Positions 13,463-40,932 of a stretch of 59,085 bases of DNA are shown here, one piece after another. Position 1 is the first letter of the stretch. Each line of letters begins with the position of its first letter. Source of the DNA: Bdellovibrionales bacterium (GTDB taxonomy: Bacteria; Bdellovibrionota; Bdellovibrionia; Bdellovibrionales; UBA1609). Made by a program: the position numbers and the translations under genes. The notes under the pieces are model-generated. The model had not been told where the DNA came from and ran no database searches. It saw only the letters and a list, made by a program, of their open reading frames with translations. Location: NCBI GenBank assembly GCA_020628165.1, contig JAHDFM010000002.1, positions 59,633 to 118,717 of the forward strand. The letters are read 5' to 3'.

Positions 13463-14938
13463 TTATTTATTGGCGTAATCTTTAGCAACGATTCCGTATT
13501 TTTCAATTTTGCGCAACAGTGTCTTTTTTGGAATGTTGGCGTGCAAAGCTGTTTGATTGATTCTGCCGTTGAACTTTTTGAGTGCACTGATGATAAACTC
13601 TTTTTCAAACGTTTCTTTTTGGCTGCTAAAATCAAGCTTTTCAGTTGAAAATGAAAACGTCGTTTTGCGATCAATGGTCGTCACCGTATCGACATTGTCC
13701 GTCTTTTGGCTCACCACAGAGCCCATGTCATTATCACTCATGATTGGGTCAGACAGTTCAATGCCACTTTTGATTAAAAAGCTCTCAGGAAGAGATCTAA
13801 TTTGAATGGTTCCAGTGTCCTCTAAAATAAAAGCGTGCTCGATGATATTTTCAAGCTCACGAATATTGCCGGGCCAATCGTAGTTTTCAAAAAGCTTACG
13901 AACTTGTGACGACACACCAGTGATCTTCATATCTTGTTTTTTGTTAAATCGACGAATAAATGTATTAGTGAGATTGAGAATGTCTCCTTTTCTCTCATCG
14001 AGTGACGGTAAGAAAATAGGCATGACATTTAAACGATAGTAGAGGTCTTCTCTAAAACTTCCGTCAGTGATCATTTTTTCAAGAGGGCGATTGGTCGCTG
14101 CAACCACGCGTACATTGGTTTGAATTTCACGGTTTGAACCAACGGGGACAAACACCTTTTCTTGCAAAACACGCAATAGCTTCACTTGCATGAGCTGAGG
14201 CATATCGCCCACTTCATCTAAAAATAAAGTTCCGCCTTCAGCGTATTGAAATTTACCAATCTTTCTTTGGTCAGCACCTGTGAAGGCGCCTTTTTCGTGT
14301 CCGAACAATTCACTTTCAAATAAGTTTTCAGGAATGGCAGAGCAGTTGATGGCAACAAACTTTCCATCTTTAAAACTAGAGTTGGCATGAATGGCTCTTG
14401 CCACAAGTTCTTTCCCTGTTCCCGAAGCACCGCGAACAAGCACAGGCGTGTTCACCTTGGAAAGGCGATCAATGATATTGAACACTTTTTTCATTTGTGA
14501 GGTATTGCCGATGATTTTTTTACCCTCATCCATATTGAGAATGGGGGCAGAGGCAGCCACATCGGCCACCATTTTGTGGGCACTTAGAGCGTTGTCAACA
14601 ATCTCGACTAAGTCTTCTTGTTTGATGGGTTTTGAGATGTAGTTGTAAGCTCCGTTTTTAACAGCTTCAATGGCATCATTGACGTTTGAGTAAGCCGTAA
14701 GAATAAGAACAATGATTGATGGGTCATGTTGTTTTATTTTTTTCAGAGCCTCAAGACCAGACATGCGAGGCATATCTACGTCAAGAATAACAATGTTGTA
14801 TTGATTCGCTTGTACTTTTTCGAGGGCATTAACGCCGTCAAAGGCCTCATCAATGTCAAAGTAATCGATGGTGGACAATGTGTTCTTAACGGTCATTCTT
14901 AAACCGGCATCATCATCAACAACTAAAACTTTTAGCAT
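13463..14938 (-). CDS. sigma-54-dependent response regulator, NtrC family
   Basis: Transcription activator of 491 residues. The receiver has phospho-acceptor Asp53 in VILDVDMPRMSG and the conserved Lys in YISKPIK. The AAA+ domain has Walker A GASGTGKE (170-177), the sigma-54 contact loop GAFTGA (217-222), Walker B GGTLFLDEVGDM and the arginine-finger segment FREDLYYRLN. A Fis-type helix-turn-helix forms the last 40 residues (NQTALHANIPKKTLLRKIEK). The start is the ATG eight bases after AAGGAG, not the GTG/ATG further upstream. It lies about 150 bases downstream of the CHASE2 kinase on the same strand, so the two probably form one phosphorelay pair. Targets plausibly include the two sigma-54-like promoters at 16965-17184. 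Confidence 0.93.
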   Translation of the reverse strand: MLKVLVVDDDAGLRMTVKNTLSTIDYFDIDEAFDGVNALEKVQANQYNIVILDVDMPRMSGLEALKKIKQHDPSIIVLILTAYSNVNDAIEAVKNGAYNYISKPIKQEDLVEIVDNALSAHKMVADVAASAPILNMDEGKKIIGNTSQMKKVFNIIDRLSKVNTPVLVRGASGTGKELVARAIHANSSFKDGKFVAINCSAIPENLFESELFGHEKGAFTGADQRKIGKFQYAEGGTLFLDEVGDMPQLMQVKLLRVLQEKVFVPVGSNREIQTNVRVVAATNRPLEKMITDGSFREDLYYRLNVMPIFLPSLDERKGDILNLTNTFIRRFNKKQDMKITGVSSQVRKLFENYDWPGNIRELENIIEHAFILEDTGTIQIRSLPESFLIKSGIELSDPIMSDNDMGSVVSQKTDNVDTVTTIDRKTTFSFSTEKLDFSSQKETFEKEFIISALKKFNGRINQTALHANIPKKTLLRKIEKYGIVAKDYANK

Positions 14939-15088
14939 TTTATACTCCTTTAAATCAGTCCCCGTAGTCATAAAATATTTTAACGGCGAAATTAACTTCT
15001 CATTTTTTTATGAGCACTTTAATGAGTGCTTGCTTTATTTTTTGGTTCTCTTTTAAGAGACCAATGGGCTTTTTTAAATAACAACCCG

Positions 15089-16921
15089 TCAATTCATATC
15101 AATGGGTAGCGACAAGGTGAACGTTGACCCTTCATTGGGTTGACTTTCCACAGAAATATCGCCGTTGTGCAGTCCTACAAAATATTGTGATAAATACAGC
15201 CCCAGACCTGACCCTTTAATGTCCTTGTTGGTCACGTCTTTACTTCTATAAAATTTTTCGAAGACATGTTCAAGTTCATCTTTGCCAATTCCAATGCCCT
15301 GGTCAGAGACCTGCACTTGGATCTCATTATCTACTTCTTCACTAGTTATCAAGACCTTAGAGTTTTCTGGGCTGTACTTAATGGCATTTTCAATCAAGTT
15401 GGTGAGCGCTTGTTTAATCAGGTGTTCATCTATTTTCAAGCTAAATAGAGGATCAAGTTCTGTGATCAAAGTGATGTTCTTTTTTTGAGCTAAGTAATCG
15501 AGTTTGCTTACTAATTTATTGATGATGGAATTGATGTCACGGCTTTGTAAGTGCAGTTTAACCCCTTGGTTTTCAACCCGGCCTAAATCTAGGATTGAGG
15601 TGATCAGTTCCGAAAGCTCTTGTGATGAGTCCTTTATACTTAAAACAGCATTTTTTTGTCGTTCACTCAGTCCGCCAGCATCAGTTAAGGTGATGTCTGA
15701 CATACCTTGAATACGTGCAAGAGGGGTTTTTAAGTCATGGCTCATCATGCGCATGAAATTATTTTTCATCTCTTCAACTTGCATAAGGAGTTTGTTTTTC
15801 TTTTGGAACTCCCACTTTTCTCGCGACTCAATGATTAGGCGGTAGGGTATGAAAAAGTAATAACAAGCAAACATGGTGATAAGTGGTTGTACCATGTGAA
15901 GGCTGTAATTGAAAAAAGCGAACGCCAAGTAGGCAATGAGACCAAGACTCATTGTGAGAGCAATGATTGTTGCGAGCCCTTTGATGGGGCGTACTCGTAA
16001 GATAACAAATAAAATGATCAATGAAAAAGTACAGGTCACTAAGAAGTTCACCCATTTGGGAGCTTTGGTTATTCCACTGTTCAGAATCAAAGTGTCCAAC
16101 ATGTTGGCTTGCATTTCACTGATGGGCATTGCAAACATGGATTTAGAGAAAGGGGTTTTTATATAATGACTTGTGCTGTTTCTCTCGTTCAGGCCCACGA
16201 TCACAATTTTATCTTGGAGAAACAGTTTATTTTTTGATTCTAAAACATCATAAAAAGAAAACTCTGGGTAAGTTCCTGTTGGTTTAAAATCAATAAAGGT
16301 CTGTTGCGAACCCTCGAACTCATAGAGTCCTTTAATAGGTTCATTTTTATTGCGGTACTTTTGTGACAACACTTTGTGTAAGCTAGGGCGACCAAAAGCT
16401 GACACCACCATTCGGCGAGTGATCAAATCTTTGGCAAAGATAAACTCTTCACGCGTTTTTGGCCCTGGCATTGAGTTCCATTTTTTATAGGGGTAAGGAA
16501 GCTCTAGCTCTTTATCTAAGCCTTTTTTTGGGAAGTTATTAGCGGCATAGATAATATTTAAGCTTTCTCCTAGGCGAGCCAATTGCTCTCTTTCTTTGTT
16601 TGTGCCGTCGAGTTTTGATGGGTCAATAGTGTAGATTAAATATCTGGGGTTATAACTTTTTAAGCGTTTTAAAAACTGAATGTGATCACTTACTACAGGT
16701 TTACGGTCGAGGGCCCCTAAAGTTTTCTCGTCAACATTGACGGTCACAATTAAGTTAGATGTAGGTGAAGTTGGCTTTAGGCGAAAACGAATGTCGTATA
16801 AAAAAGCTTCAGCTGCATAAAATTCATATTGAGTTAAAATAAAACTTATAGAAATGGCGCAACAAATCCTCATCGCCATTTTTAACCCTTGATAAAAGCT
16901 TGTCGTCTTAAATATTTTCAT
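15089..16921 (-). CDS. CHASE2-domain sensor histidine kinase
   Basis: Membrane sensor of 610 residues. An N-terminal helix at 15-31 leads into a periplasmic CHASE2 sensor of about 35-275 (start FLYDIRFRLKP, end SEMQANMLDTLI). Three membrane helices follow at about 292-309, 316-336 and 342-360. A HisKA domain has the phospho-acceptor His395 in MSHDLKTPLARI. A HATPase domain has NAIKYSPENS, DQGIGIG and GSGLGLYLSQYFV. The CHASE2 ligand is unknown; this domain usually sits in kinases and cyclases that watch the periplasm. Its likely partner is the NtrC-type regulator just downstream. A sigma-54-like promoter lies 44-59 bases upstream of the start codon, which suggests autoregulation. Confidence 0.93.
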   Translation of the reverse strand: MKIFKTTSFYQGLKMAMRICCAISISFILTQYEFYAAEAFLYDIRFRLKPTSPTSNLIVTVNVDEKTLGALDRKPVVSDHIQFLKRLKSYNPRYLIYTIDPSKLDGTNKEREQLARLGESLNIIYAANNFPKKGLDKELELPYPYKKWNSMPGPKTREEFIFAKDLITRRMVVSAFGRPSLHKVLSQKYRNKNEPIKGLYEFEGSQQTFIDFKPTGTYPEFSFYDVLESKNKLFLQDKIVIVGLNERNSTSHYIKTPFSKSMFAMPISEMQANMLDTLILNSGITKAPKWVNFLVTCTFSLIILFVILRVRPIKGLATIIALTMSLGLIAYLAFAFFNYSLHMVQPLITMFACYYFFIPYRLIIESREKWEFQKKNKLLMQVEEMKNNFMRMMSHDLKTPLARIQGMSDITLTDAGGLSERQKNAVLSIKDSSQELSELITSILDLGRVENQGVKLHLQSRDINSIINKLVSKLDYLAQKKNITLITELDPLFSLKIDEHLIKQALTNLIENAIKYSPENSKVLITSEEVDNEIQVQVSDQGIGIGKDELEHVFEKFYRSKDVTNKDIKGSGLGLYLSQYFVGLHNGDISVESQPNEGSTFTLSLPIDMN

Positions 16922-16964
16922 TCTTTTTACTTAAATGGTTGTTGGTTTAACTCATAAATCATTA

Positions 16965-16980
16965 AGCAAATTTGTTGCCA
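16965..16980 (-). promoter_or_regulatory. putative sigma-54 promoter of the CHASE2 kinase/NtrC operon
   Basis: On the minus strand the sequence is TGGCAACAAATTTGCT. This matches TGGCAC-N5-TTGCW with the GG and GC elements at the required spacing and one mismatch in the first block. The predicted start of transcription is about 30 bases before the ATG of the kinase. Confidence 0.65.
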
Positions 16981-17168
16981 TTTATGAAATAAATAAAAGC
17001 TTACTATTTCAATAACTTATGAGTAGTGATTTATCATTAGTAGGTATGTGTTTGAAAAAACTTGAATAAGAGTTGAACGTTTTTGGTAAGACTTTCATGG
17101 TTTTGTATTGCTAAGCATTAGAAATTAGACGATAATTTTAAAATAGTGTCAAAATGGCTTTGATTTTT

Positions 17169-17184
17169 TGGCTTCCTATTTGCT
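17169..17184 (+). promoter_or_regulatory. putative sigma-54 promoter of the small secreted protein
   Basis: TGGCTTCCTATTTGCT carries TGGC and TTGCT at exact -24/-12 spacing, with two mismatches in the AC of the first block. It would start transcription about 25 bases before the ATG at 17219, leaving room for the GAGGGG ribosome site. Confidence 0.55.
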
Positions 17185-17218
17185 ATTACACTTATACAGC
17201 AATAACGAGGGGTTCTTT

Positions 17219-17617
17219 ATGAAACTACTAGCATTAATATTAACAATGATCTTAAGTTCAGTTGTACATGCCAATGATTTCAATCTTGGAAATAGCATTG
17301 CGCCAATTCAAGTCGACTATGCTAAAGGTAAAATTACCGATCGCCTTGGTCATTTAGTTTCTGAAGCTATTGAAAGAGACATCATAGTTTACGCTGATGG
17401 TTTAGATGATCACGTCAATGATGTTGAGTTATTAGATATTTACAAAAAAGTGCAATCTCTAAATAATGGACATCAAGCAGCTCAGCTAATTCGCAATTAC
17501 AACAGTCAAAACAACAACCCTGAAGTCGTTAACCAAGCTTTGAACGGAGTCTTTGGAGGTCCTATTTTCTTTTTGAATGGAAAATGTTGTGTTTGTGGAA
17601 CATCTTGTGGTGATTAA
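17219..17617 (+). CDS. small secreted protein with a C-terminal cysteine cluster, unknown function
   Basis: A 132-residue protein with a clear Sec signal (MKLLALILTMILSSVVHA) and a mature part of about 114 residues. It ends in GGPIFFLNGKCCVCGTSCGD, where four cysteines lie within eight residues (C-C-x-C-x3-C). I know no family for it. The cluster could bind metal or form disulfides. The start is the ATG after GAGGGG; the frame is open further upstream but without a ribosome site. It is monocistronic, with a strong terminator right after it, and is divergent from the CHASE2 kinase/NtrC pair. The candidate sigma-54 promoter makes it a likely target of that pair. Confidence 0.8.
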   Translation: MKLLALILTMILSSVVHANDFNLGNSIAPIQVDYAKGKITDRLGHLVSEAIERDIIVYADGLDDHVNDVELLDIYKKVQSLNNGHQAAQLIRNYNSQNNNPEVVNQALNGVFGGPIFFLNGKCCVCGTSCGD

Positions 17618-17652
17618 GGATTAATTTCAAAAATGGGGTCAACTTGACACTA

Positions 17653-20714: not shown

Positions 20715-20986
20715 AGTTATCAGAAGATAGACAAAGTCATTTGGCTCATGTGATCGTAGAGGGGTTGTGGAAGGATGATGTCGTTGATTACAGCGATGAT
20801 GACTTTGCTTTACGTTTAGGGAAAAAAGCTGTAGTTAAGTATGCACAAGAGGTTGAACAGGTCGACGCTAAGGCTCGCCAAATGGTTCAGTCTCTTAAAC
20901 GAGGAGTTCCTGAAGGTTCGCCGGAATGGGAAGTTCTTTATAAGAAATACTACGAACAGGAGTTAGATAAGCGTGGCATCAGCTAA
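20711..20986 (+). CDS. DUF507-family protein, second copy
   Basis: A 91-residue paralogue of the preceding gene with the same layout: MKLSEDRQSHLAHVIVEGLWKDDVVDYSDDDFA, a helix with VEQVDAKARQMVQSLKR, and a tail VLYKKYYEQELDKRGIS. The two are clearly related but well diverged, so the duplication is old. It overlaps the first copy by 4 bases and the fusion gene downstream by 14 bases. Translation of all three is thus tightly linked and near-equal amounts are likely. Role unknown. Confidence 0.83.
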   Translation: MKLSEDRQSHLAHVIVEGLWKDDVVDYSDDDFALRLGKKAVVKYAQEVEQVDAKARQMVQSLKRGVPEGSPEWEVLYKKYYEQELDKRGIS

Positions 20987-21803
20987 AAAGAAAAAAGCAA
21001 AAAAGAAAGCAACTCGAAAAAAAACAACCAAGAAGAAAGTCACTAAAAAAAAGGCTGCCAAAAAAGTAAAAAAAAAGAAAGCCACTAAGAAAAAAGCTGT
21101 CAAAAAGAAAGTGACCAAGAAAAAAGCGACGAAAAAGAAGGTCAAAAAGAAAGCTACTAAGAAGAAGGCTGTCAAAAAGAAAACCAAAAAAAAAGTGACT
21201 AAGAAAAAAGCGACGAAAAAGAAGGCTAAAAAGAAAGTCACTAAGAAGAAAACTAAAAAGAAAGTGTCCAAAAAAAAGGTGACAAAAAAGAAAGCAATTA
21301 AGAAAAAAGCGTCTAAAAAGAAGGTCAAAAAGAAAACACCTCAGAAAAAAGCCGCTAAGAAAAAGCCAACCAAGAAAGCTGCAAAGAAAAAAACCACTTC
21401 GGCGAAAGTCACAAAGAAAAAAGCTGCAGCTGCTAAGACTAAAAAATCGACCCCAACTAAACTTAAGACATTAAAAATTGAAGGCCGCGATAAAAAGATC
21501 ATTGATTGGGATAAGTTTTTAACTCCACTCGATGATAGAGTGTTGATTGCAAGAGATGGCAAAAGTGAGACAACATCTGGCGGAATAATCATTCCTGGTT
21601 CAGTAAGTATGACAGCACCTAACAAAGGCAAAGTGCTCAGCGTAGGCCGAGGCGCTCGCAATAAAAAAGGCACAATCAAGCATATGGATGTGGCTGTTGG
21701 TGATAATATTCTTTTTTCAGACTATGCAGGAACTAAGATCAGCTTAGAAGATGAAGATCTACTCATATTGCGTGAGTCAGATATCTTAGGTGTCATATCT
21801 TAA
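20973..21803 (+). CDS. histone-H1-like lysine-rich tail fused to a GroES (Cpn10) domain
   Basis: A 276-residue fusion. Residues 4-160 are almost only Lys with Ala, Thr and Val in KKKATKKKA-type repeats, the composition of bacterial H1-like DNA-binding tails. A short linker (LKTLKIEGRDKKIIDWDKF) leads to a complete GroES domain at 183-276: LTPLDDRVLI, the mobile-loop segment SETTSGGIIIP, GKVLSVGRGARN, DVAVGDNILFSDYAGTKI and the ending LLILRESDILGVIS. The mobile loop that binds GroEL is intact. The start is a GTG overlapping the upstream DUF507 gene by 14 bases, with the reading frame continuous through to GroES. No groEL follows. The tail predicts nucleic-acid or membrane-acid binding, and the head predicts a heptameric co-chaperonin ring. 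A combined role is inference. A strong terminator follows. Confidence 0.88.
   Translation: MASAKKKKAKKKATRKKTTKKKVTKKKAAKKVKKKKATKKKAVKKKVTKKKATKKKVKKKATKKKAVKKKTKKKVTKKKATKKKAKKKVTKKKTKKKVSKKKVTKKKAIKKKASKKKVKKKTPQKKAAKKKPTKKAAKKKTTSAKVTKKKAAAAKTKKSTPTKLKTLKIEGRDKKIIDWDKFLTPLDDRVLIARDGKSETTSGGIIIPGSVSMTAPNKGKVLSVGRGARNKKGTIKHMDVAVGDNILFSDYAGTKISLEDEDLLILRESDILGVIS
21117..21260 (+). repeat. 84-base imperfect direct repeat inside the lysine-rich tail
   Basis: The segment beginning AAGAAAAAAGCGACGAAAAA at 21117 recurs at 21201, exactly 84 bases (28 codons) later, with few differences over about 60 bases. This points to growth of the tail by in-frame duplication. Confidence 0.7.
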
Positions 21804-40469: not shown

Positions 40470-40932
40470 AACAGGCCTCTCTTTTTATTCTCTGTAGTTT
40501 ACTTTAAGACATAAAATGCGAATAGAGCTTGTGAAAAAACGAAAGTAAAAATGTAATTTTTATGTTCTCAAAGTCATTGTGTTTGAAATCAGTAATGAGG
40601 CTTGGGTTTAAGAAAAACTTACTTTGGTCTTATATTGATGAGACAAGCATTTATCATAAAGTAACAAAAATTTAACGCTGCTTAAATTTGGGATGTAAAT
40701 ACTTTCCTAGTTAGACTTTACTCCAGGTAAATTCTATCGTTTGGACCGACAGTCCTGTCAAAAAAAATTGTTGAGGTTGTTTTTTTGATCGCAACCATGG
40801 TCGGTAAAACTAGATTCTCTTATGACAATCATCTGTTTTTTATCCACTTAAGTCCGTGAGAAAAAGTTGGCACCATCATTGCTTTAACAGTTTGTAGATA
40901 AAAATTTTGACACACACTCCATGGAGGGAACA
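40470..40932. other. control region upstream of the flagellar operon
   Basis: 463 bases without a gene, between the divergent S41 gene and fliL. The sigma-54 promoter at 40868-40883 is the clearest element. The AT-rich part from 40560 to 40860 would hold the activator sites; an IHF-like bend site or enhancer was not recognised by eye. Confidence 0.6.
40868..40883 (+). promoter_or_regulatory. sigma-54 promoter of the fliL-fliA operon
   Basis: TGGCACCATCATTGCT matches both conserved blocks of TGGCAC-N5-TTGCW exactly. It lies 50-65 bases before the GTG start of fliL. A 12-gene flagellar operon follows, which fits class-II sigma-54 control of flagellar genes. Confidence 0.85.

Follow-up and report, generated by a model that had tools for sequence, protein, structure and literature searches.

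Conserved divergent sigma-54 sites between a CHASE2 kinase operon and the gene for a small cysteine-tailed protein in Bdellovibrionales

A CHASE2 sensor kinase and an NtrC-type regulator, encoded as one operon in a Bdellovibrionales genome, lie divergent from the gene of a small, putatively exported protein with a cysteine-rich tail, and comparison confirms two divergent sigma-54 sites in the 297-base gap between them, both judged real because they are conserved in all four genomes of the genus. The locus lies in a stretch of 59,085 nucleotides that was analysed as a whole and is here called the window. We regard it as probable that the locus encodes a locally acting, self-regulating envelope-sensing circuit made up of the kinase, the regulator, their own operon and the small gene. 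The kinase would, judging by its CHASE2 domain, sense an extracytoplasmic signal and, judging by adjacency, phosphorylate the regulator. The regulator would in turn bind copies of a palindrome and drive its own operon and the small gene from their sigma-54 promoters, and the product of the small gene would pass through Sec and work in the periplasm. Comparative support is strong for a regulator that would drive its own operon and moderate for one that would also drive the small gene, the latter being graded moderate because of the unusual spacing of one candidate site (site 1 below). For the self-contained sensing unit of the original prediction, sigma-54 sites on both sides and regulation of the own operon are borne out by comparison, and direct activation of the small gene is a step that we infer. 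The genes and promoters are as follows.

13463..14971 (-): NtrC-type sigma-54 activator response regulator, 502 aa; Response_reg 9.5e-31, Sigma54_activat 1.9e-71, HTH_8 6.5e-6
15089..16921 (-): CHASE2 sensor histidine kinase, 610 aa; Pfam CHASE2 8.3e-24, HisKA 3.3e-15, HATPase_c 1.3e-27
16965..16981 (-): sigma-54 -24/-12 promoter of the kinase operon, ATGGCAACAAATTTGCT; score 13.8; kept in 4/4 genus genomes and at many loci of the order
17168..17184 (+): sigma-54 -24/-12 promoter of the small gene, TTGGCTTCCTATTTGCT; score 12.6; kept in 4/4 genus genomes, before the same small gene
17219..17617 (+): small, predicted exported protein, 132 aa; open reading frame with an N-terminal Sec-type signal peptide (by eye) and the C-terminal sequence CCVCGTSCGD

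The Pfam matches agree with the earlier assignment of the left-hand operon to a CHASE2 kinase and an NtrC-type activator. The kinase has CHASE2 followed by HisKA and HATPase_c, as fits CHASE2 sensor kinases, and the regulator joins a receiver to an AAA+ domain with GAFTGA and a Fis-type helix-turn-helix (HTH), as fits sigma-54 activator response regulators, although at 430.8 bits it falls below the cut-off of 558.6 for the NtrC equivalog TIGR01818. RpoN is encoded in the same genome. Elsewhere in the window, at 20973-21803 (+), a long lysine-rich, histone-like N-terminus is fused to a GroES domain (Cpn10 1.9e-27), and the same fusion occurs in the related genome G002 (L079:13364-14335).

Both -24/-12 motifs have the exact GG-N10-GC spacing that had been read from the two sides of the gap, and both recur in 4/4 genus genomes; the predicted transcription starts at approximately 16953 (-) and 17196 (+) leave short leaders to both start codons. 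Taken from the window alone, the two-sided evidence is suggestive and weakly above chance. Sites were scored with an approximate matrix; the window has eight with a score of at least 12.6, and by our own arithmetic two correctly oriented sites, each no more than 100 nt from its start, would arise by chance at approximately 5e-5 per divergent pair. The strongest sigma-54-like site of the whole window is not one of these two but TTGGCACCATCATTGCT at 40867-40883 (+), with a score of 17.6. A search of the whole window with the plain -24/-12 consensus gave 42 matches against 35.5 expected, which is not significant and would suit a reading in which the two motifs are chance matches and ordinary promoters transcribe the genes. 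Conservation argues strongly against that reading, which we consider extremely improbable. Scores across the four genus genomes are 13.8, 15.2, 15.2 and 17.3 on the kinase side and 12.6, 12.9, 12.1 and 12.5 on the small-gene side, shuffled upstream DNA reaches 12 or more in 0.3% of 300-nt regions, and the genus alignment shows conserved -24 and -12 blocks amid otherwise diverged DNA. The enrichment extends over the order: a score of at least 13 is found in 17 of the 55 scorable named loci (0.25 expected by shuffling) and in 10 of 405 other upstream regions taken from those loci as a control.

Of 59 genomes, 45 encode a relative of the kinase at E<=1e-60, and 80 named loci were collected, nearly all labelled Bdellovibrionales, Bdellovibrionota or Oligoflexia. 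Their typical order is PBP1C, a radical-SAM gene (in 38/80 loci), kinase, regulator, a conserved gene, ileS, lspA and lgt, with the lspA and lgt labels taken from the window's own genes. On this comparison the kinase/regulator circuit is old and local. Many Bdellovibrionales, Bdellovibrio bacteriovorus among them, have an operon that starts with the gene of a radical-SAM/SPASM enzyme (for example L071:7058-8428, L072:8579-10075 and L149:2314-3639), often behind a sigma-54 promoter and often with the palindrome. The enzyme is nearest to PapB and nif11-like peptide maturases, with all scores below the curated cut-offs. The window genome (G000) and its genus relatives (G001-G003) gave no match to the locus-type maturase of the order at E<=1e-30.

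The recognition helix region of the regulator's HTH, GRINQTALHANIPKKTLLRKIEKY, is nearly constant over the order, so its DNA site is expected to be constant too. A search upstream of the kinases yielded the palindrome GGTGTCA-N3-TGACACC as the candidate site: upstream of 30 kinases there are five exact copies of TGTCA-N3-TGACA against 0.03 expected. With up to two mismatches, the palindrome precedes the operon's first gene in 17/55 scorable named loci (0 expected) and is present in 0/405 of the control regions. As the loci share relationships, such order-wide counts are not independent events, although they span many genera. Across 141 genomes we counted 25 exact copies of GTGTCA-N3-TGACAC, 18 of them at the kinase locus. 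The other seven are at chance level (the reversed control pattern gave eight), which is why the palindrome appears to mark a regulator that is close to single-target.

The window genome carries two candidate copies of the palindrome and a further conserved element.

17086..17098 (+): second genus-conserved element, GGTAAGACTTTCA; exact as GGTAAGACTTACA in two relatives, with one mismatch in this genome and three in G002
17145..17161 (+): candidate regulator site 1, a degenerate palindrome copy, AGTGTCAAAATGGCTTT; 5 mismatches here; same position in 4/4 genus genomes
17635..17651 (+): candidate regulator site 2, directly behind the small gene, GGGGTCAACTTGACACT; 2 mismatches

The small gene is thus bracketed by two copies in 4/4 genus genomes. 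Site 1, with two to three mismatches in the other three genomes, is the weaker copy in G000 and on its own is not significant there (P 0.089). Site 2 is the better copy in G000; its counterparts lie 17-39 nt past the stop codon in 4/4 genomes, with 2, 4, 3 and 2 mismatches and a shuffle P of at most 0.0215 in each.

Two other elements were considered as the regulator site and set aside. The original prediction had singled out a ACTCATAA/TTATGAGT pair, which is present at 16950-16957 and 17017-17024 but is absent from the intergenic regions of the three genus relatives; conservation supports the palindrome GGTGTCA-N3-TGACACC instead, and ACTCATAA is also not rare in the window (four found, 2.3 expected). 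The element GGTAAGACTTACA is conserved in the genus, but in other genera nothing upstream of the kinase matches it well.

Over the order, loci that have both usually show the palindrome at 35-46 or 99-137 bp before a sigma-54 element facing the kinase or maturase-kinase operon, distances that are typical of enhancer sites. Site 1 is approximately 137 bp from the kinase's element in the two genus relatives measured, a normal enhancer distance, and approximately 15 bp from the -24/-12 element of the small gene, which is unusually close for an enhancer-binding protein; in the window genome it could repress, or serve the kinase promoter only. This pair of distances favours a reading in which the regulator activates its own operon only, site 1 serves the kinase operon or repression of the small gene, and another enhancer-binding protein, to which the upstream element GGTAAGACTTACA could belong, serves the small gene's sigma-54 promoter. 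We think this unlikely, given that the small gene has site 2 beside it as well in 4/4 genomes, an arrangement difficult to account for unless that gene is a target, and that spacings of 11-15 bp occur at the kinase or maturase promoter in a few distant loci (L193, L201, L208 and L220), mostly with weak matches. Less likely again is a palindrome bound by a different local regulator, whether a repressor or another factor, as a second input beside real sigma-54 promoters. Several loci do have the palindrome but no recognizable sigma-54 site (L006, L009, L021 and L030), and in Bdellovibrio-like loci the sigma-54 site is kept but the palindrome is reduced to a weak variant; in Bdellovibrio it is degenerate although the HTH has hardly changed. 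However, across the order the palindrome goes with the kinase/regulator pair whether or not the maturase is there, exact copies at other places do not exceed chance, and the spacings are those of enhancer sites. The reading that we prefer remains a regulator that would act through the palindrome on its own operon and, with moderate support, on the small gene.

Some exact palindromes away from the kinase locus have neighbours of their own. In G014 one lies 143 bp before the gene of an exported protein of 116 aa that ends in CGNGGGNCTTC, and a methyltransferase gene comes next (L105:1501-1994, G014:C26); no sigma-54 site was seen there and, with off-locus palindromes at chance level, we keep this protein as a lead only and not as a second cysteine-tailed target. 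Another copy in G014 lies just before the gene of a sigma-54 activator without a receiver domain (L108:1501-2630, G014:C52) and may mark a cascade or be due to chance. At L106:1446-1515 (G036:C21) the palindrome occurs with a sigma-54 site of score 16.8 at approximately 46 bp, facing a gene for a 290-aa protein with a signal-peptide-like start, which is a possible second target of the regulator.

The small protein ends in CCxC-x3-C as originally predicted. Open reading frames of 118-122 codons stand in the same place in G001, G002 and G003, with start codons chosen mechanically, a signal-peptide-like start and tails reading CCECGDC, CCGCGNC or CCGCGEC. Identity to these counterparts is 21-29%, compared with 64-67% for the kinases in the genus, and what stays invariant is mainly the start, a P-x-F ahead of the tail and CCxCG. 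With the same place, promoter and tail in 4/4 genus genomes, this is by comparison a real gene, but a fast-changing one, and its product is predicted to be exported through Sec. The fast divergence explains why searches with a single sequence find nothing. There is also no Pfam or NCBIfam match at E<=0.1, the family of ZraP-type metal-resistance proteins included. A profile built from all four small proteins gave convincing matches in the genus only, and protein, profile and genome scans gave no convincing homologue outside it. The structure model (pLDDT 46) is too poor for a fold search, and a remote relationship to ZraP at the level of fold may exist. A DNA-pattern search for other CCxCG tails in the genus gave few further matches, which look like chance. 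Small exported proteins that are invisible to homology search can hence be found by position and promoter.

By analogy with ZraP and CpxP, we tentatively suggest, at somewhat less than even confidence, that the small protein is an accessory that damps the kinase, uses its cluster of cysteines to bind metal or thiol-reactive stress, or does both. A more doubtful idea is that the circuit kept its sensor, regulator and enhancer site and swapped its output between a radical-SAM maturase in many genera, a fast-evolving CCxCG-tailed protein in this one and maybe other exported proteins elsewhere. In that case the cysteine-tailed protein would be a functional substitute, more than a simple feedback accessory; it might, for instance, be secreted as a signal, act against competitors or handle metals or thiols. 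The comparison supplies a defined regulator together with a candidate site on the DNA and a short list of targets, and the operon and its sigma-54 promoter also occur in cultured Bdellovibrio, which makes the proposal directly testable. A search of the open-access literature turned up no work on a two-component system that combines CHASE2 with sigma-54 activation in Bdellovibrio or related bacteria.

Among known systems, the PapB and nif11-like radical-SAM/SPASM maturases resemble an enzyme that is first in the same operon elsewhere in the order and absent from this genus; a RiPP-type maturase encoded in the same genome as the cysteine-tailed protein was not found in G000-G003 (E<=1e-30). In CpxP-CpxAR, the gene of a small periplasmic accessory protein is likewise divergent from its two-component system, but CpxR is an OmpR-type regulator that works without sigma-54. 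The accessory protein of GlrKGR (QseEGF), QseG, is a lipoprotein, and we know of no CHASE2 sensor in that system. GlrKGR is described as a two-component system with a sigma-54 activator and a kinase controlled by an envelope protein (PMC4987338; PMC6075780). The GlrR site, TGTC-N10-GACA (PMC4987338), has half-sites similar to those of the present palindrome (TGTC-N5-GACA), in which the spacing is 5 instead of 10.

ZraPSR (HydHG) of Escherichia coli and Salmonella has the same plan as the present locus: divergent sigma-54 promoters, a kinase with an NtrC-type regulator, and one small periplasmic protein (PMC4987338, PMC8249747). In vitro, ZraR binds almost solely the zraP/zraSR gap (PMC4987338, PMC8249747), and ChIP-seq has reported 25 further targets (PMC8249747). 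Divergent sigma-54 promoters and a small exported protein gene are found here too, with export judged by the signal-peptide-like N-terminus only. The differences are the CHASE2 sensor, a small protein outside the ZraP family and a regulator that, at 375.5 bits against a cut-off of 760 for the ZraR model NF007689, is by this model no ZraR orthologue. As far as sequence comparison goes, the locus would work like ZraPSR but is not a member of the ZraPSR family.
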